Under the pieces are notes generated by a model. It did not search any database, had not been told where the DNA came from, and was given only the letters and a program-made list of their open reading frames with translations. The position numbers and the translations under genes are program-made. Shown piece by piece: positions 1,601-47,700 of a stretch of 64,000 bases of DNA (its first letter is position 1; every line of letters starts with the position of its first letter). The stretch comes from Onchidella celtica (Eukaryota; Mollusca; Gastropoda; Systellommatophora; Onchidiidae), in NCBI GenBank assembly GCA_963931925.1, contig OZ007572.1:21356460-21420459 (forward strand), written 5' to 3'.

Positions 1601-2290
1601 GACTTTGTCGGTGTTGTCGGACTTGTGTGGTAGATTTGTCTGGCTCGTCCAGTGGACTAGTCATACTTGTCGAACCTGTGCTGCAGACTTCTTAGACTTG
1701 TCTGGCTCATCCAGTAGACTAGTCGTACATGTCGGACCTGTGCGGCAGACTTCTTGGACTTGTCAGACTTTTGCGGCAAACATGTCTGACTTGTTGTGCC
1801 ATCTTGTCAGACTTGTGCAGCGGACTTGTCAGCCTCGTCAGACTTGTGCCCCTGGCTAGTCAGACTTATGCGGCAGACCTGTTTGACTTGTGCTGCTGAT
1901 TTGTCGGACTTGATGGATGTCTGCAGTGGACTTATCAGATATGCTGGACTTGGCAGACTTGGCAGACTTTTTTCGAAAAAAAAAAAAGTAAAGCGAACCT
2001 CCTAAAATAAAGACCTCAAATCAAGCAGACTTTTTCGGCGAACTTTGTTGGACATGCGGTGGATTTGTCAGGTTTGTCATGATTGTGCAGCCTGCATGTC
2101 AGACATGTCAAAGTTGTGGGGTTTCTGCAGTGGACTTGTCGGACTTGTTGAACTTGAGCAGTGGATTTGTCAGACTTGTGTGGATGACTTGTTGGATTTG
2201 TCGTACTTGTCGAATCTACTTGGCCAACTTGCCGGACTTGTGCGGTGGACTTGTTAGACGTAATAAGCGAACTTGTCGAATCTGGACAAA
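1573..2290 (+). repeat. Short-period minisatellite built on the gacttgt word
   Basis: Irregular tandem repetition of short units such as cttgtcagacttgtgcggca, with a spacing of roughly 18-24 bp. The words gacttgt, tgcggcag and gtcggac recur throughout. It merges into the more regular 43-44 bp array at about 2285. ORFs across it, such as 1542-1859, reflect a scarcity of stop codons in the repeat and are not taken as genes. Confidence 0.75.
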
Positions 2291-5100
2291 AGACTTTTGA
2301 CCAACTTTTGGATGAGTCAAAATTTTTTGGTCCAAGGTGTCAGACTTGTGCATCAGACATGTGGTGTCAAAATTTTTGTGGGCAACTTTTCGGACTTGTG
2401 CGTTAGACTTGTCCGATTTTTGGCCAACTTGTTGGATATGTTCATCAGTCTTGTCAGATTTTTTGGCCAACTCGTCGGACTTATACATCAGACTTCTCTG
2501 ATTTTTTGGCCAATTTGTCGAACTTGTTCATCAGTCTTGTCAGATTTTTTGGCCAACTCGTCGGTCCTATGCATCAGACTTGTCGTAATTTTTCATTCAA
2601 TTTTGTGGACTTGCACGTCAGACTTGTCAGAATCTTTCGGCCAACTTGTCGGACCTGTCAAAATTTTTTGGCCAACTTGTCGGACTTGTGCATCAGGCTT
2701 GTTGCAATTTTTAGGCCAACTTGTAAGACTAGTGCATCGGACTCGTCAGAGTTTTTCAGCCAATTTGTTGGACTTGTGCGTCAGACTTATTGGATTTTTC
2801 AGCCAACTTGTTGGATTTGTGCGTTAGACTTGTCGTAATTTTTCGGCCAACTTGCTGGACTTGCGTGTTGGACTTGTCGGATTTTTTGGCCAACTTTTTT
2901 TACTTGTGCGTCAGACTTGTCAGAATTTCTTGGTGAACTTGTTGGGTTTCTGTGTCAGAGCTGTCGGATTTTTTGGCCATGCTCTCGGACTTGTGCATCA
3001 GACTTCTTATCATTTTTCAGCCACATTGTCAGATTCGTGCGTCATACGATGTCATAATTTTTCAGCCAACTTGTTGGATTTGTGCGTCAGACTTGCCGGA
3101 ATTTTTCGGCCAATTTGTCAGACTTGTCAAAATTGTTTTGGCCAACTTATTGGAGTTGTGCATCAGACTTGTCAGAATTTTTTGGCCAACTTGTTAGACT
3201 TGTGCGTCAGATTTATCAGATTTTTTGGCCAACTTGTCGGACTTGTGCGTCAGACTTGTCATAATTTTTTGGCCAACCCTTTGGACTTCCACATTAGACT
3301 TGTTGGATTTTTCGTCCAACTTGTTGGATTTGTTGGTCAGATTTGTCAGAATTTTTTGGTCAATTTGTTGCACTTGTGCATCAGACATGTCGGAATTTTT
3401 TGGTCAACTTGACAGACTAGTTAGAATCTTTGGGCCAACTTCTCGGACTTGTCAAAGTTTTTTTGGCCAACTTGTTGGACTTGTGGGTCAGACTTATCAG
3501 AATTTTTGGGCCAACTTGTTGGATTTGTGCCTCAGACTGGTCAAAATGTTTTGGCCAACTCATAGGACTTGTGCATCAGACTTGTCGGAATTTTTCAGCC
3601 AATTTGTCGGACTTGCATTTCGGACTTGTCGTACATCAGACTTATCGGCATTTGTCCGACAACATCTTGGACCTGTGCGTTGGACTTGTCAAAAGTTTTT
3701 GAGCGACTTGTCGGACTTCTGCGTCAGACTTGTCGGAATTATTCGGCCAACATGTTGGACTTGCATGCCGGGCTTGTCGGGTTTTTCGGCCAACTTTTCG
3801 GATTTGTGCATCAGACTTGTCGGAATTTTTTCCGGCAACATCTCAGACCTGTGCGTTGGACTTGTCAAAATTTTTTGAGCGACTTGTCGAATTTCTGTGT
3901 CAGACTTGTCGGAATTTTTCTGGCAACATCTCGGACTTGTGCGTCAGACTTGTCGGATATTTTGGCCATCTCAGACTTGCGCGTCAGACTTGTCAGAATT
4001 TTTTTGGTGAACTTGTTGGGTTTCTGCAACTTCTTGGACTTGTGTGTCAGACTTCTTAAAATTTTTCTGTCAACTTGTCAGACTTGTGCATCAGACAATG
4101 TCATAATTTTTTGGCCAACTTGTTGGATTTGTGCGTCAGACTTGCCGGAATTTTTCGATCAATTTGTCAGACTTGTCAAAATGGTTTTGGCCAACTTATT
4201 GGAGTTGTGCATCAGACTTGTCAGAATTTTCCAGCCAACTTGTCGGACTTGTGCGTCAGACTTGTCGTAGTTTTTTTGTCAACTTGTTGGACTTCCACCT
4301 TGGACTTGTTGGATTTTTTGTCCAACTTGTTGGATTTGTTGGTCAAACTTGTTAGAATTTTTCGGCCAATTTGTTGGACTTGTGCATCAGACATGTCGGA
4401 ATTTTTCGTCCAAACCATCAGACTTGTTAAAATTTTTAGGCCAACTTCTCGCACTTGTCAAAGTTTTTTGACTACCTTGTTGGACTTGTGCGTCAGACTT
4501 ATCAGAATTTTTAGGCCAACTTGTTGGATTTTGTGCCTCAGGCTGGTCAAAATGTTTTGGCCAACTCGTCAGACTTGTCGGATTTATTGGCCAACTTGTC
4601 CGACTTGCATATCGGACGTCGGATTTTTCCAGCCAACTTACTGGACTTGTACATCAGATTTGTAAGTTCTTTTTCATTCAAATTGTTTGATTTGTGCGTC
4701 AGACTTCTCAAATCTTTTTGGCCAACTTGTTGGACTTGTGCATCAAACTTATCGGAATTTTGGGGAAACCTTGTTGGATTTGTGTGTCAGGCGGGTCAGA
4801 ATGTTTTGGACAACCTGTCGGTCTTGTGCATCGGACTTGTCGGAAATTTTTTCTGCTAACTGGTCAGACTTGTGGGTCAGATTTGTCAAAATGCTTTGGC
4901 CAACTTGTCGGAATTTTCGGCCAACTAGTTAGACATGAACGTCGGACTTGTCAGACTTTTTTCTCCCAACTTATTGGATTTATGCATTGGACTTCTTTGA
5001 ATTTTTTGGCCAACTTGTTAGACTTGAGGGTCAGACTTGTCGGAATTTTTCCGCCAACTGGTTGGACTTGTGCATTAGGCTTGTCAGACTTGTGTGGCGG
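2285..5100 (+). repeat. 43-44 bp minisatellite, about 60-65 units, with higher-order repeats
   Basis: The unit is approximately ttttttggccaacttgtcgg followed by acttgtgcatcagacttgtcagaa, 44 bp in its commonest form. It is repeated head to tail for about 2.8 kb with substantial divergence. A second level exists: blocks at about 2930-3600 recur in order at about 4000-4570. Examples are the distinctive gacttgtcaaaattgttttg word at 3121 and again at 4170, and the cttccac word at 3286 and again at 4292. Overlapping ORFs of 100-233 codons occur in all three plus frames because the unit nearly lacks stops. Since 44 is not a multiple of three, these are repeat artefacts rather than one protein. Confidence 0.9.
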
Positions 5101-5112
5101 ATTTGTCGGGCT

Positions 5113-5415
5113 TATGCTAACATTAAAACAAGAACTTCTAATTCTAAAGGGTGACAAAGGGGCGTCTAAAATAGCTGTTTTGTGCATTAATTGTATGTGT
5201 GTGTGTTTGTATTTGTGTCCTGATTTTAGATCTAGTTCATCCAGTGGAAGGGTCTTTTGCTTTTAGGGATCTTTGACCAGTTGTACGTAATTAACATTTA
5301 TCCTAACACTCACCCTATTAAAAACTTGCAATTCTAATGGGTGGATAGGAGGCGTTTAAAATAGTTGGCTTTGTGCATTATTTGTGTGGAGGGATGTGTG
5401 TGTGTGTGTGTTTAA
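5113..5415 (+). repeat. Two-copy direct repeat, 190-bp spacing, each copy ending in a GT tract
   Basis: The segment attctaa(a/t)gggtg(a/g) ... ggcgt(c/t)taaaatag ... tttgtgcatta occurs at about 5141 and again at 5331. Each copy runs into a short (GT)n tract, at about 5193-5206 and 5395-5411. It sits immediately after the minisatellite. Confidence 0.7.
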
Positions 5416-24154: not shown

Positions 24155-24159
24155 CTAAT

Positions 24160-24454
24160 TGTAATTTGGTTTAAATAAGTGAGTCGAACTCAGAGAGAGA
24201 CAAGAATTTGGCATCCCCATGGTGATTGATTCACCACAGAATACGGGTATCCCCAATCTTAATCATTGCGCACCCTGAATAACATTGGTATTATTCACAT
24301 CCATCAGCGGTGCGAACGTTGTCAACCGCCAGTGTGGTCTGTCGTGATTAATTCGTGTGTGGATGCAGGGAGGGATTTCTGACGAGATGAAAACATGGTG
24401 AGAGAATAGTTCTTTTAGTGCTGAAATTTTCAAGTCCAGGACAGTAAAACTACA
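24160..24454 (+). repeat. 5' LTR (295 bp)
   Basis: Begins TGTAATTTGG and ends AAAACTACA. It appears identical to 28208-28502. Promoter and polyadenylation elements inside it could not be pinpointed. The following sequence (24455-24473) shows no clear tRNA-complementary primer binding site directly abutting the LTR. Confidence 0.95.
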
Positions 24455-24473
24455 AGCTATTTCGGCAAGGATC

Positions 24474-25241
24474 ATGGCGGCAGTGAGAGTGACTGCGGAG
24501 ATGTTGAAGTCCTTTGCTGGAGATGGGGATGTGGTGGCATGGATGCAAAAGGTGAAATTGGTAGCGAGGCTACAAGGAGTAAAGGACTTGGCAACATTTT
24601 TGCCTTTGTACTTAGAAGGAGATGCACTTGCCTTATTTTTGGAGCTAAGTGATGACGAACAGCTTGACATCAAAATAATTGAAAGAAAACTACTGGAGGC
24701 CTTTACCGATAGTCCATTCGTGGCATTTGCTAAATTATCACAGAAGAGATGGAACGGTGAGCAGGTTGACGTGTATGCCAATGAGTTGAGAAGGTTAGGC
24801 GGGTTAGCAGGTTTGAGTGGTGACAGTCTTGAGAGGGTAACCAAGCTTGCTTTTGTGAATGGGTTTCCAGATAGTGTGTCGTGCGAATTACAACAGATTG
24901 AGAGAGTATTCGAGATGAAAATGAGTGATGTGATTGGGAGAGCGAGAGTGCTTACGACAGCAACGAAGGGAGAAACAGTGGTTGCCTCTGCTACAACTTC
25001 ACGGATGATCAGGCGAGTGGAAAAGGACGGCGGAGGAGATGATGGTCGGCAGTTCAAGGGATCATGCTACCGATGTGGAGGACCGCACATGGCAAAGTAC
25101 TGCAATACCAGAATGAAACGCAGAGATATAATCTGCTATCGCTGCGACCAGGTCGGACACATTGCAAGCCAATGCAATCAGAATCAGGGAAACGAGCGAC
25201 GGGTGGCTGGTGCGCCAGCAGCCACTCTTCAACAGGAATGA
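24474..25241 (+). CDS. gag: Gag-like nucleocapsid protein, 255 aa
   Basis: Starts at ATG 24474, only 20 bp after the 5' LTR, and ends at TGA 25239-25241. The first ~180 residues are helix-rich and charged, as in retrotransposon capsid proteins, with no named motif that I can fix. Two zinc knuckles lie near the C-terminus. The first, at residue ~198, has spacing CX2CX3HX4C, one residue shorter than usual. The second, at residue ~221, is a standard CX2CX4HX4C. They would bind element RNA during particle assembly. The protein is short for a gag. A slippery heptamer with a downstream hairpin lies in its last 20 codons, and its stop overlaps the first in-frame pol ATG. A 264-codon antisense ORF is a shadow. 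Confidence 0.9.
   Translation: MAAVRVTAEMLKSFAGDGDVVAWMQKVKLVARLQGVKDLATFLPLYLEGDALALFLELSDDEQLDIKIIERKLLEAFTDSPFVAFAKLSQKRWNGEQVDVYANELRRLGGLAGLSGDSLERVTKLAFVNGFPDSVSCELQQIERVFEMKMSDVIGRARVLTTATKGETVVASATTSRMIRRVEKDGGGDDGRQFKGSCYRCGGPHMAKYCNTRMKRRDIICYRCDQVGHIASQCNQNQGNERRVAGAPAATLQQE
25187..25225 (+). promoter_or_regulatory. Predicted -1 ribosomal frameshift signal (GGGAAAC plus hairpin)
   Basis: The heptamer G GGA AAC (25187-25193) lies in the gag frame as X XXY YYZ, a classic -1 slippery sequence. A 9-nt spacer follows. Then comes a GC-rich inverted repeat, gtggctg (25203-25209) with cagccac (25219-25225), able to form a hairpin of 7 pairs or an alternative inner stem. Slipping back one base joins gag at Gln-Gly-Lys to the open pol frame, which reads through protease. 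The gag stop would otherwise end translation 46 nt later. Confidence 0.72.
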
Positions 25242-28144
25242 TGGCGCAGTTGTTACCCGTGATAGATGTTGTGTTGGGGGGACGAGTGGTGAAGGCGTTA
25301 GTAGATACCGGCTGCGATACTACTGTTGTTAGCTCGAAGGCTGTCGGAAGTTGTGATGGTGAGACCTTCATGGTGGCCTTTGATGGATCAAAAGTAAGGT
25401 GCCAGGGAAAGCAATTGCTCCGGATAGAGGTACGGGGAATTGAAGTAGAGAGTCATGCCATAGTATCGGATTCAGTCTTTGGAGATATAACTATCGTCTT
25501 GGGAATGGATTTGATTGAGAAAATGAAAGGCGTCACTGTCCGAAATGGAACTGTTAGGTTTGGTTTTGAGAGTTGTTCTGTGGCGAAAGAGGCACCGGGC
25601 AGTGATGAGAATTTGGGTGAGAAACCAACCTACATGGAAGACAAGTCTGTTAGTGGGATGGGACATAGAGTTAAAGATGGATCATGCAGTTCAATTGAAG
25701 ATGTCGATTTTACAGCTGAGTTTGATGGAGAAAAGTGGATTGTTAAGTGGAAGTGGAAATCATCTCCTCCGGTGTTAATGAACAGAGTAGGCTGTTACGA
25801 CAGAAATCTTCAGGGTGAAGTGGGGGATGGCTTTCATAACGAAGTTCAGCGGTGGATTGATGAGGGAATTTTGGTACCATGGGGAGAGACTGTTAAGAGT
25901 GGCATTATCCCACTGATGGCCGTGCAACAACCTACAAAGAACAAAGTGCGACCGGTTCTTGACTTTCGAGAACTCAACTTGCATATAAGTTGTCATACAG
26001 GCGACGATGTAACAGACGTGTGCAGTGAAACTCTGCGGGAATGGAGACAAACAGACGCCGGAACAATTGTTGATTTGAAGTCCGCTTACTTACAAATCCA
26101 CATGGATAAGGAGCTTTGGAAGTATCAGCTCGTAAATTACAAGGGCAAGACCTACTGTTTAACAAGACTTGGCTTTGGGTTAAATTCAGCGCCACGTATA
26201 ATGTCGAAAATATTGAAGACGGTTCTCGCAAAATCAGAAAAGGTGAAGGCTGGGACGAAATCATATATTGACGACATATTGGTTGATGAGAACCAGGTGA
26301 CACCCGATGAGCTGATCAGTCATCTTAACAGATATGGACTTGTGACAAAACCCCCTGAATCACTGGAGGGCGGCGCGGCTCTTGGATTGCGATTGAAAAC
26401 CAATGACTGTGGCGTCCTGGTTTTTACCAGAGGGAACGAACTGCCTGAAGAGGTGACGTGTCTTACCAAGAGAGAACTATTTTCGATCTGCGGAAAGCTC
26501 GTTGGGCATTATCCTGTGGCTGGATGGCTGAGAGTGGCAGCAAGTTACATCAAGAGAAAGGCAGGTTGTATAGGATGGGAGGAGCAGGTGGCTGAAGATG
26601 TTATTTGTATGTTACAAGATGTCCTGAAAAGGGTGAAAGAGAATGACCCGGTGACCGGAATATGGCAGGTTCATGAGAAAGTGAAAGGGATTGTATGGTG
26701 TGATGCGAGCAACATTGCACTTGGAGCATGTTTGGAAATTGGCAACAGTGTTGTGGAAGATGCAGCGTGGCTCCGAAAACCTTCCGATGTTAGCCATATC
26801 AATGTTGCAGAACTGGAAGCTGTGATGAAAGGCGTAAATATGGCTATAAAATGGGGACTAACGGAAATCGAGATTGTAACAGACTCCGCCACAGTTAGCG
26901 CATGGATAAAAACTATTCTCACCGCTGAGAGACGGGTTCACACCAAAGGGGCCGCTGAGTTGCTAGTGAAGCGACGGTTGAGAGTTTTGGAGAGTCTGAT
27001 TGATGAGTTCAACATCAGCGTTACCGTGACGTTGGTCTCAACTTCCAAGAATAAGGCCGATGTTCTTACAAGAGTGAAGAAGGAATGGATTAACAGACCA
27101 ATTAGTAAGATGAGCCAAGATGATTCAAGTATTTGTGCGGCAGGATATGTAAACCTGCGTACGCTTCATGAGATGCACCATATGGGCGTCGATCGCACTC
27201 TGTTCCTGGCAAGAAAGTCAATGCCAAACGTAAGTCGAGAGGCTGTGAAAAATGTCGTGAGAAGCTGCTCAAGGTGCCAATCAATAGATCCTGCTCCACG
27301 TGTTCACGAAAGAGGTCAATTGAGTATTTATGAAAATTGGAGAAGACTGGCGATTGATGTTACACATTATCATGGAATTCCGTATCTCTCAATCATAGAT
27401 TGTGGCCCCGGAAGGTTTGCAATATGGCGAAAATTGAACCGTGAGACTGGTGAGGCCGTAGCAGAAATCATGGAAGAAGTGTTTCTGGAGAGAGGACCGG
27501 TGTTGGAGGTTCTTATGGATAACGGACTGGCGTTTCACTCTGAAGTTGTGACAAACCTGTTGAACAGATGGAACGTTGTTGGGTTCTTTAGGGCGGCTTA
27601 TCGGCCAAGCGGGAACGGGATCATTGAGCGGAATCACCGGTTTATCAAAGCTGTTGCAGAACGATGTTCCATTTCTCCACAAGAGGCGGTCTTTTGGTAT
27701 AACTCTACTCCAAGGTATGGGACTGATTCAAATTCCGTGCCGTTCCAAGCAGTTTACCAATATGATTGGGGTAATCCCGCCCGCATTGAACAGGAGGATG
27801 AATCTCTCGTGAAAAGTGGATGCGTTAAGATTGGTGATGAGGTATGGGTCAAACCACCTAACAATCGTTGCACAACACAGTGGAAGAAGGGAACGGTGAC
27901 TGGAATTAACTCTGTGAACAATGTGGTGGTAGACGGTACGCCTCGGCACATCCTTGACATTAGGAGAGTGATAGAACAAGAACAAGAAACAGAAGCCGAT
28001 CGAGTTGAAGAGAACAACGATGGACCACAAGGATCTGAAGCTGAAAACGAGGAGCTAGTGCGTGACCAGCCTGATGAACAACGGCGGAACCCGAGACGGC
28101 TAAGGCGGCCTCCAGCATGGCTCTCGGATTATGATATTGAATAG
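25238..28144 (+). CDS. pol: Pol polyprotein: protease, reverse transcriptase, RNase H, integrase (968 aa from the overlapping ATG)
   Basis: The frame is open from 25064. The first ATG after gag is at 25238, in an ATGA overlap with the gag stop; frameshifting at 25187 is the likelier entry. Numbered from 25238: aspartic protease with DTG at residue 23; RT with the palm Asp in the VDLKSAYLQI segment and YIDD at about 343; RNase H with WCDAS (Asp ~489), VAELEAV, TDSATV and NKADVL giving D-E-D-D; integrase with an HHCC zinc finger starting at about 644 and catalytic D707, D761, E797, i.e. D,D(35)E. The C-terminus has a basic and acidic tail. No internal stop or frameshift is seen, so the gene may be functional. 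The RT diverges from common Ty3/Gypsy types. Several shadow ORFs lie on both strands. Confidence 0.93.
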   Translation: MMAQLLPVIDVVLGGRVVKALVDTGCDTTVVSSKAVGSCDGETFMVAFDGSKVRCQGKQLLRIEVRGIEVESHAIVSDSVFGDITIVLGMDLIEKMKGVTVRNGTVRFGFESCSVAKEAPGSDENLGEKPTYMEDKSVSGMGHRVKDGSCSSIEDVDFTAEFDGEKWIVKWKWKSSPPVLMNRVGCYDRNLQGEVGDGFHNEVQRWIDEGILVPWGETVKSGIIPLMAVQQPTKNKVRPVLDFRELNLHISCHTGDDVTDVCSETLREWRQTDAGTIVDLKSAYLQIHMDKELWKYQLVNYKGKTYCLTRLGFGLNSAPRIMSKILKTVLAKSEKVKAGTKSYIDDILVDENQVTPDELISHLNRYGLVTKPPESLEGGAALGLRLKTNDCGVLVFTRGNELPEEVTCLTKRELFSICGKLVGHYPVAGWLRVAASYIKRKAGCIGWEEQVAEDVICMLQDVLKRVKENDPVTGIWQVHEKVKGIVWCDASNIALGACLEIGNSVVEDAAWLRKPSDVSHINVAELEAVMKGVNMAIKWGLTEIEIVTDSATVSAWIKTILTAERRVHTKGAAELLVKRRLRVLESLIDEFNISVTVTLVSTSKNKADVLTRVKKEWINRPISKMSQDDSSICAAGYVNLRTLHEMHHMGVDRTLFLARKSMPNVSREAVKNVVRSCSRCQSIDPAPRVHERGQLSIYENWRRLAIDVTHYHGIPYLSIIDCGPGRFAIWRKLNRETGEAVAEIMEEVFLERGPVLEVLMDNGLAFHSEVVTNLLNRWNVVGFFRAAYRPSGNGIIERNHRFIKAVAERCSISPQEAVFWYNSTPRYGTDSNSVPFQAVYQYDWGNPARIEQEDESLVKSGCVKIGDEVWVKPPNNRCTTQWKKGTVTGINSVNNVVVDGTPRHILDIRRVIEQEQETEADRVEENNDGPQGSEAENEELVRDQPDEQRRNPRRLRRPPAWLSDYDIE

Positions 28145-28193
28145 AAGCAGGGAATTTGTACATATGTAATATATTGATCTGGAGTTAATCTTA

Positions 28194-28207
28194 AGATCAA
28201 GGGGGCA
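28194..28207 (+). other. Polypurine tract before the 3' LTR
   Basis: agatcaagggggca abuts the 3' LTR start at 28208. The position and the purine run aaggggg fit the plus-strand primer of LTR elements. The two interrupting pyrimidines (tc) leave a short core. Confidence 0.7.
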
Positions 28208-28502
28208 TGTAATTTGGTTTAAATAAGTGAGTCGAACTCAGAGAGAGACAAGAATTTGGCATCCCCATGGTGATTGATTCACCACAGAATACGGGTATCC
28301 CCAATCTTAATCATTGCGCACCCTGAATAACATTGGTATTATTCACATCCATCAGCGGTGCGAACGTTGTCAACCGCCAGTGTGGTCTGTCGTGATTAAT
28401 TCGTGTGTGGATGCAGGGAGGGATTTCTGACGAGATGAAAACATGGTGAGAGAATAGTTCTTTTAGTGCTGAAATTTTCAAGTCCAGGACAGTAAAACTA
28501 CA
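28208..28502 (+). repeat. 3' LTR (295 bp)
   Basis: Matches the 5' LTR over its full length in a base-by-base reading. It is followed directly by the second ctaat target copy. Confidence 0.95.
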
Positions 28503-28507
28503 CTAAT

Positions 28508-44700: not shown

Positions 44701-47700
44701 CTCCCCTAAACAATTAATAATACTCTATGAACATTAAGGGGGGGGGGGGGGGGCAGGTCCTGAAATCGAGTTTTTGGCTCAATTCTTACTTTTGTCGATT
44801 TTCGGAAGGTTCAACCATGTCTATTTACGTTTTTGAGACTCATTTGACCTAGCTAAGCGTTTTTTCATTAAAAAAACACAAGACTTTCATGGGAGAGGGT
44901 CGAGTAAAATATGCGCTTCTAATCGAAGAAAATACGTTATAATTGCCAGTTCAAGACACAATGAAACGCCATTTCTGGCTGATTTGTGGTATAGGGACCT
45001 TTATATTGGAATCTCCCACTTGTATGAATGATCCAGAACGGCCAGGAATGTATTGATACATTTGGTAAACATCCAGACACTTTTTTCAGCCAAAAAACCT
45101 TTGCAAATTTTCAAACGCGTTTTTCTCAAAACTTACTTTTTTTACGTTAATTTCCTAACTCCTTTTTTTACATTTTGTTGGATTTCGCTGAAAATTGGAC
45201 TATAGCATCATTATATTGTATACTAAAAAAGTTAGTATCCACGTTTGAGTATCATTTATAGTTTACGAGAAATCTATCATTTTTGTGGTGAAAAATCAAG
45301 AAAAATGCATATGCGCTATATACAATTTTCAGAATTTCTTAGAAAAACATCTATCAAAGATATCCAAATAAAAATATTAAAATATCTTTATTATATATTG
45401 AAATATAAGCATACAAAATTTCAAGATCATTTGTTGAAAAATGACGGAGCCTTTAGGTTTTGAAAATAGCTGTTTACATGGAGGCGAAATTCAAGATGGC
45501 GGCGTTACCATGGTAACCATAAGTCCAAGTATTTTGTTTATACTTTTCTCCCCTAATTTGGACATGCTGAATTCAAATACGGAAGTTAAAATTGCCAACT
45601 CTATGGAGGCGAAATTCAAGATGGCGGCGTTACCATGGTAACCAATAAGTCCAAGTATTTTGTTTATACTTTTCTCCCCTAATTTGGACATGCTGAATTC
45701 AAATACGGAAGTTAAAATTGCCTACTCTGTGTTGTTTAGAATATCACTCTCAGGACCCCCCCTTAAACTCCTTGTTATTTGCAACTCAAGACAGACAAAT
45801 TACTTCCTGCCCATGGAACATAGCAGGAACCTGTACAATATTTACACAGAGCTCCAAGCTCTTCTATATTCTTGTCGGGAAGGTTCATGCTCATTATAAA
45901 TGTACAAAACCACAAATCTATTAAAATGCACATAGAAAATTATCTACTATCTGTAAAAATGAATCTCATTTTTCTTGGATCTAAATAATCAAATAACTTA
46001 CCCTCTGTAAACAAATCACGATCCCAAATCTCTTGGATCTGAATACTCAAAAGTACTTACTCCTTGTAAACATAGATTCCACATTTCTTGAATGTGAATA
46101 TACAAGAAAGAACTTACTCCCTGTAAATACAGATCCCACATTTCTTGAATGTGAATATTCAAAAGAACTTACTCCCTGTAAACACAGATCCCACATTTCT
46201 TGAATGTGAATATTCAAAAGAACTTACTCCCTGTAAACATAGATAACACATTTCTTGAATGTGAATATTCAAAAGAACTTACTCCCTGTAAACATAGATC
46301 CCATGTTTCTTGGTACTAGGACTGGCATTGGGGTTGGCTGGAATGGTGGGCTGGGCAAGTGGACCATCGCCTTTCTGGCGTTCTGGACTGAGGGAGTTTG
46401 TCACAACAGAGTCCAGCTCTACCTCTCCCTTCCTTTCACTTTCTTCTTCTTCCACCTCTGCCTCTTCTTCTTCCTCCTCCTCCTCTTCTTCTTCTTCTCC
46501 TTCTCCCACTTCCTCTTCTTTCTCTTCATCCACCAACTCCTGCTCTTCATCATCTGCAGGTTCCTCTGCATCATGGAAGCTCTGCTCATCTGGTTCTATT
46601 CGAATATGGGTCTCACTGAATAGGAAATCATAAAGCAGTATTTCATGTGACAAAGATGAACCTGTTTGACAGTAATTGTCTTTCTCTACTACGGGCGGGC
46701 AGAGGGGGGTGGTGGTGTGTGTGTGTGTGTGTGCGCACATGCATTTGTGTGTGTTTGTTTGTTTTTTCACTCTTTCTCCACAAGTAAACTGATTTCATGC
46801 AAATAAAAAAATATGCATCAAAATGAAAGCCTCTGTTCCCGTAAATAATTTATGTTATGTGAAACAACTTTGTGTTGGAAAAAATGTGAACTGATCACAC
46901 AGCTCATCCATGAAACATTGCCCATCAGCTGCAGTATAACTGCAAAGTCAAAATTGGGCAAAAAGAAAAGGTTGTATGTTGCAAAGCCCCGCATATAACT
47001 GCAGATTACAAAGTCTTGTTTCTTAATTTCAGCCCTTGACGGTATTCTTTACTGGTTGACAAATTGTGTGAGAAAAACAAGAGTTTAGCAACACCTGAGT
47101 TCTTCTTTGTTATCACCTACATGATTATAATCATTGCAAGAGCTTTTAAATCTCAAGCAACGCATAAACAAATCCATCCGTAGGCTGGAAATGCCACATG
47201 TGATAAGTCAATTTTTTCCCATTTTCTTTGCAAGATTTGCATGTAGTGAAGACAGTGTGATTTGTAACCACTGCTTCTCTTACCTGGCTTTACTAGGTCT
47301 CCTGGATTCGTCTTTATCAGTGGGTGTGACCAAGTTCTGAGGGAGGATTGGAGCATGGTTCATTGCACTGTAATCTTGATTCAAATGATTACATGAGCCT
47401 GTGCCGATATTGCCATTCATCTGAAAAGGCAATGAATGAAATACATGTTAATTAGAAACAAAATACTTTTGTATGACCAAGCATTCTTCCCTTCCAGACT
47501 ATTTCTCTGTCTTTTTTGATAATGTTGTTCATATCTTTGAGAAAAATAACAATTAGAACAATGATGATTTTTTAAATGATGAATTTGCTCTGAAATGTCC
47601 CAACCTGGACGGTTCTAATATAAAGCCAAAGATTTTACAATCTAATAATATTTATTTTGAAATGCATCTACTGAAATTGAAATGATGAAGACTGAAAAGA

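Follow-up and report, generated by a model that had tools for sequence, protein, structure and literature searches.

The stretch of Onchidella celtica DNA analysed here (64,000 nucleotides, referred to as the window) contains a complete and apparently young LTR retrotransposon of about 4.3 kb on its plus strand, at positions 24160–28502, and the question raised by this locus is how the element makes its Pol protein when pol lies in the -1 frame relative to gag. A preliminary description of the sequence had proposed a -1 frameshift signal ahead of the gag stop and, as a second possible route, reinitiation at an overlapping start codon. Our analysis strongly supports the frameshift, as the phase of the slippery heptamer, the open -1 frame, the potential for downstream structure and the conservation among relatives all point to it; from these observations we infer the slippage, its efficiency and the folding of a pseudoknot in the cell. 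The most probable reading (probability about 0.91) is an ordinary -1 programmed ribosomal frameshift signal, through which this recently inserted LTR retrotransposon would produce its Gag-Pol fusion.

The features of the element are collected in Table 1. Paired LTRs, a target-site duplication, gag and the protease, reverse transcriptase (RT), RNase H and integrase domains are all present, as is typical of an LTR retrotransposon. One of the two gag zinc knuckles passes Pfam while the other was read by eye, and the pol domains come from Pfam matches to segments of Pol, of which some score below the cut-off set by Pfam. The two LTRs are identical and the element has been inserted recently. Only 19 nt (24455–24473) separate the 5′ LTR from the gag ATG, and the first bases of this stretch are not TGG. 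Read as the reverse complement, the stretch includes GCCGAAATAGCT, which we take to be the 5′ end of a eukaryotic tRNA-Phe; if that is truly so, the primer arrangement would be unusual. Elsewhere in the window, related repeats belonging to 244-nt and 185-nt families form a block with several overlapping ORFs at 2273–5266, and there is a short tandem array with units of about 55 nt at 45995–46312.

Table 1. Positions in the window of the element, its genes and the parts of the predicted frameshift signal.
Feature	Position	Strand	Evidence
Target-site duplication CTAAT	5′ copy 24155–24159; 3′ copy 28503–28507	+	read directly
5′ LTR, 295 nt, TG...CA	24160–24454	+	100% identity to 3′ LTR
gag, 255 aa, two C-terminal zinc knuckles	24474–25241; stop TGA 25239–25241	+	ORF list, Pfam, homologues
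pol frame, -1 relative to gag	25043–28144; first ATG 25064	+	protease, RT with DUF7047, RNase H, integrase
Slippery heptamer G_GGA_AAC	25187–25193	+	sequence; conservation of Gag Gly-Asn and Pol Gly-Lys
Spacer between heptamer and pseudoknot, 7 nt	25194–25200	+	pseudoknot scan
Stem 1 (S1) 5′ arm, 9 bp with 25219–25227	25201–25209	+	fold, scan, deduced relatives
Stem 2 (S2) 5′ arm UGCGCCA	25211–25217	+	scan, deduced relatives
S1 3′ arm	25219–25227	+	fold, scan, deduced relatives
Loop 3 (L3), 14 nt, containing gag stop and first ATG of ATGATG	25228–25241	+	scan
ATGATG, a pair of in-frame pol ATGs of which the first overlaps gag TGA	25238–25243	+	sequence; not conserved
S2 3′ arm UGGCGCA	25242–25248	+	scan; core 25243–25247 matches S2-compatible site in relatives
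3′ LTR, 295 nt	28208–28502	+	identical to 5′ LTR

Counting from the gag start, position 25187 is the third base of a codon and the sequence reads CA G_GGA_AAC (Gln-Gly-Asn), which agrees with the earlier claim that GGGAAAC occupies the gag frame as X XXY YYZ. Slippage was also said to give an open pol frame, and the -1 frame is indeed free of stops across the heptamer and into pol. According to PMC5009743, G_GGA_AAC is among the shiftiest heptamers on mammalian ribosomes. A strict in-phase heptamer occurs in the overlap in 14.7% of 20,000 gag codon shuffles; by itself the heptamer is weak evidence and could be chance. The locus combines a zero-frame X_XXY_YYZ, an open -1 frame, a predicted downstream structure and conservation of the heptamer and S1 (of S2 in part), and the strongest evidence for the putative signal is the conservation among homologues.

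The best H-type pseudoknot 3′ of the heptamer consists of a 9-bp S1, a 1-nt L1, a 7-bp S2, a 1-nt L2 and a 14-nt L3. Its summed stacking is -34.5 kcal/mol, which is a score and not a free energy, as the scan sums stacking only and has no loop terms. Of 1000 dinucleotide shuffles, 221 form any H-type pseudoknot and not one scores equally well, nor does any of 231 other in-frame gag windows. The predicted downstream structure, unlike the heptamer alone, is more than chance. The preliminary description had a 7-bp stem after a 9-nt spacer. That stem (GUGGCUG/CAGCCAC at 25203–25209/25219–25225) is present, but it extends to 9 bp and the spacer therefore shortens to 7 nt. The downstream hairpin likewise exists in the form of S1, but the stimulator is probably an H-type pseudoknot rather than a simple hairpin, with an S2 arm that lies beyond the gag stop and beyond the interval to which the signal had been assigned. 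When 25187–25260 is folded, as had been suggested as a check for a hairpin or pseudoknot, the nested minimum fold pairs 25199–25207 with 25252–25260 and breaks S1, which speaks against the pseudoknot. The minimum fold of 25194–25300 restores S1.

These folds bear on the alternative that survives best, namely that frameshifting is stimulated by a plain hairpin (S1 only) or by a longer nested stem, and that the S2 complementarity is a by-product of coding. In its favour, S1 is stable on its own and the nested fold is the minimum for the 74 nt; against it, S2 pairs 7/7 in the window and the shuffles never score as well. With the evidence from relatives described below, which also cuts both ways, we consider this alternative unlikely, with perhaps one chance in a few.

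The host genome (1,140,862,475 bases in 43 contigs) was searched with the 151-nt cassette at 25150–25300, which gave 40 scored places out of 43 candidates, the window included; 33 of them are identical to it and seven, which were inspected base by base, are at 99%. The comparison with other copies that the preliminary description had called for comes out in favour of the signal, as the heptamer is kept in all 43 genomic places (the 40 cassette matches and the loci L046, L047 and L048; window included). Since 40 of these places were found with the cassette itself, a search with the gag protein is a fairer test. Its best candidates include 40 family rows with near-complete gag; all 40 keep the heptamer and all are among the 43 places, so that the intact copies without a heptamer that would have spoken against the signal did not appear among them. 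The fragment L050 does not contain the cassette. Changes in the pseudoknot arms are seen in single copies (L010 and L011 in S2; L012 and L014 in S1), and in L047 the gag TGA is gone, which also removes the second ATG; the arm changes and the loss in L047 look like decay of individual copies. In one region of the genome (G000 C7:26070106–26091599) four copies of the cassette follow one another at intervals of about 7.1 kb, as would be expected of a tandem duplication.

Relatives were available as proteins only: 106 homologues of Gag and, for Pol, the best 120 of 867 homologues from a search that scored only the 7993 candidates sharing most words. The last knuckle is recognisable in 101 of 107 Gags (window included), the other six not being judgeable, and what follows it is Gly-Asn in 86, Glu-Asn in 14 (one of which, P0094, is an in-frame fusion) and neither in one. 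When 34 of the 107 Gags are aligned, the only invariant residue past the last knuckle is Asn240, which is decoded in the A-site of the heptamer. In the -1 frame, Gly-Lys is found 35–40 residues upstream of the protease motif in 16 of the 19 Pols that have at least 42 residues before this motif, among the best 120 of 867. The exceptions are P0184, P0208 and P0214; the last two carry zinc knuckles in the pol frame and look like in-frame elements. Gly-Asn in Gag (GGN AAY) and Gly-Lys in Pol (GGN AAR) lie one base apart, and therefore the bases are fixed as GGGAAA followed by C or T. The Glu-Asn Gags other than P0094 (13, for example P0038, P0039, P0064 and P0083), in 10 of which the stop lies within one codon, would need G_GAA_AAC if slipping takes place at the same position. 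With the N-terminal 62 residues of P0163 as the query, a protein search recovered P0163 alone. Profiles of gag and pol, applied to viral contigs and prokaryote genomes to obtain DNA from relatives, matched some stretches, none of which was confirmed.

The DNA of some relatives can be deduced from their proteins by asking which Gag tail and which Pol N-terminus are readable from one DNA in both frames. Among 98 tails and 120 Pols, four gag/pol pairs are compatible over at least nine codons, and no pair is compatible in any of 10 shuffled sets. Source records of equal length gave 21 candidate pairs, of which three were solved (3988, 4166 and 4288 nt), 17 overlap by less than three codons (in most of these the Pol on record begins at or past the gag stop) and one has no knuckle. 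The pair P0043/P0206 has equal lengths and yet the two are clearly different elements, and thus equal record length is no proof of a shared source. The fourth compatible pair, P0033/P0146, comes from records of unequal length (4107 versus 4305).

The deduced DNA of P0003/P0108 has the exact heptamer and an S1 that pairs 9/9; overall the heptamer is fully fixed in one of the four deduced relatives and merely compatible in three. P0033 and P0041 have a 10-bp S1 with one bulged A, and P0074 has nine of those 10 pairs. Covariation is seen at the S1 pair 25205–25223, which is G-C in the window, G-U in two relatives and A-U in two. The five core pairs of S2 (25212–25216/25243–25247) are possible in all four relatives at identical columns, in a comparison that rests on proteins, with a partly degenerate S2 3′ arm and both frames under coding constraint; of the outer pairs, 25211–25248 is kept in two of the four and 25217–25242 in none. 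In P0003 the gag stop is located nine bases further upstream and the S2-compatible site still stays at columns 25243–25247, which argues against S2 being a coding by-product of a plain hairpin or nested stem. From the 120 Pols, 32 were hand-picked because they extend to the slip site or to the Cys-Ala next to it. In 14 of the 32, codon offset 19 is compatible with G-GYN-C (a pattern chosen after inspecting the sequences), compared with 0–2 at each of 18 other offsets; the stricter G-GCN-C fits at offset 19 in 11 of the 32. The 14 fitting Pols vary in the residues on both sides (Q, K, E, R, M, T, A or S before; H, L, R, P or Q after) with codons that can all supply the G and C, again unlike a by-product of coding. 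In the plain hairpin's favour, however, the other 18 of the 32 Pols leave S2 unsupported at the exact register, the site being different or absent. More generally, where protein databases are the sole resource, pairing proteins from the gag and pol frames can still yield nucleotide-level evidence on a recoding site.

The second route suggested earlier was that Pol is made by termination and reinitiation at the overlap of gag TGA with an in-frame pol ATGATG. The overlap was correctly seen, with pol ATGs at 25238 and 25241. The second of these has A at -3 and G at +4, which is a good start context, and 10 of the 120 Pols examined (the best 120 of 867) begin with MKA, consistent with the same arrangement, so that the ATGA overlap probably recurs in some relatives. 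However, it fails as a conserved feature: a stop-start overlap kept among relatives was found in none of the four deduced ones, which have no ATG at the gag stop, it is impossible in 28 of 98 Gag homologues whose last codon is unable to supply the A of ATGA, and it is broken in the copy L047. Reinitiation would moreover yield Pol without Gag and leaves the conserved heptamer unexplained. That Pol is made mainly in this way is very improbable, and there is no need for a second route to Pol. Both arrangements do occur within one short interval, as had been pointed out, but the coincidence looks like a by-product: the ATGA may follow simply from the placement of the gag TGA just before the second pseudoknot arm.

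Weaker still, and hardly credible, is a chance heptamer in a dead overlap, with no Pol made or with Pol made by some other route such as splicing, as the probability of about 0.15 for an in-phase heptamer in the overlap would allow; against it stand the conservation across Gag and Pol homologues and the recent activity with Pol supplied that is indicated by the identical LTRs and the many near-identical copies.

In the favoured reading of a -1 programmed frameshift, ribosomes translating gag would arrive at G_GGA_AAC and, with the heptamer occupied by tRNA-Gly and tRNA-Asn, would be held there by the H-type pseudoknot that lies 7 nt further on. Some of them would slip back by one base, re-pair on GGG AAA and, now in the pol frame, bypass the gag stop to give Gag-Pol, while the others would end at the TGA and release Gag. 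Most likely, the signal keeps the enzymes of the element at a low and fixed proportion relative to its shell protein.

The Gag homologue P0030, used as a query, finds two further related families in the same genome. Fourteen of their loci were fetched (L051–L064), and 10 of them (L051–L056, L059 and L062–L064) encode the last knuckle in the same frame as the protease motif; L057, L058, L060 and L061 are broken or incomplete. In the 10 readable loci the linker is 201–210 nt long, without a stop and without an in-phase strict heptamer, a single out-of-phase heptamer being present in L062. The signal is thus absent from the loci in which gag and pol are in the same frame, and these two families that fuse gag and pol serve as natural controls within the same genome. 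Their linkers hold Cys-Ala-Gly- or Ser-Ala-Gly-like stretches that resemble the -1 frame peptide of the frameshift elements, and these stretches may be a remnant.

As for the placement of the element, the domain order of protease, RT, RNase H and integrase is that of Ty3/gypsy (Metaviridae), but it is common to other groups and not decisive. DUF7047 adjoins the RT in 24 of 24 aligned Pol rows (25901–26863 in the window pol), and in the same 24 rows, window piece included, the Y and DD of the RT motif are invariant. To our knowledge, none of the 11 Pfam families found in the Pol rows is specific to gypsy. The element is not filed in Ty3/gypsy, and its clade could not be placed. PMC12440569 and PMC11673190 describe Troyka and Kuafuorterviruses, animal LTR elements outside the classical groups, the former with a 3-bp target-site duplication, CG...CG ends and a CX2CX8-10HX4C knuckle, the latter mostly 5–6 kb long with IADD, VADD or LADD in place of YXDD. 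On these descriptions, membership in Troyka is ruled out by the 5-bp duplication CTAAT and the TG...CA termini of the window element, whose last knuckle is CX2CX4HX4C, and membership in Kuafuorterviruses by its YxDD motif with invariant Y and DD; its length of 4.3 kb also differs.

In an RT tree of 88 rows, 25 frameshift-labelled and six in-frame-labelled rows fall on two sides of one branch, the labels having been set by motif rules that leave 57 of the 88 rows unlabelled. Addition of two family-C rows from the host genome (with the family-B row left out) gives two changes without firm support, and no direction of change between the frameshift and in-frame states is claimed. The Gag and Pol searches together returned four species-named homologues, from crustaceans and molluscs. 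Titles and the openings of abstracts in the openly licensed literature on frameshifting or on new lineages in such elements gave no description of this clade's signal. It is possible, if somewhat doubtful, that these elements form a large unplaced LTR clade with a dual-coded frameshift signal, its pseudoknot written in both frames, in which one branch uses a non-standard slip site (the Glu-Asn Gags with G_GAA_AAC, where P-site re-pairing would go through a middle-position G-U) and other branches fuse gag and pol in-frame, so that both strategies occur in one genome. Of the leads that emerge, the most interesting are the Gags with Glu-Asn and the occurrence side by side of frameshifting and fused families.

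Frameshifting of this kind is a well-known mechanism. Retroviral gag-pro/pol signals consist of an X_XXY_YYZ heptamer, a short spacer and a GC-rich H-type pseudoknot. The window element has the same layout, but its S2 closes only after the gag stop, and the overlap doubles as coding sequence for the beginning of Pol. Among animal LTR elements, a 2003 survey cited by PMC5009743 found pol in the -1 frame in 28 of 51, many with classical heptamers; the passages of PMC5009743 available to us do not describe the clade of the window element. The closest likeness is to PEG10, for which PMC4598141 reports a G GGA AAC heptamer with a pseudoknot and PMC2800197 two products made via -1 frameshifting. The arrangement in the window is PEG10-like in both heptamer and pseudoknot; the relationship claimed between the two goes no further than the LTR-element character of the window element. 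PEG10 is a single mammalian host gene derived from a retrotransposon, whereas here a well-supported and easily testable predicted frameshift signal is carried by a mobile, multi-copy and recently active element family.
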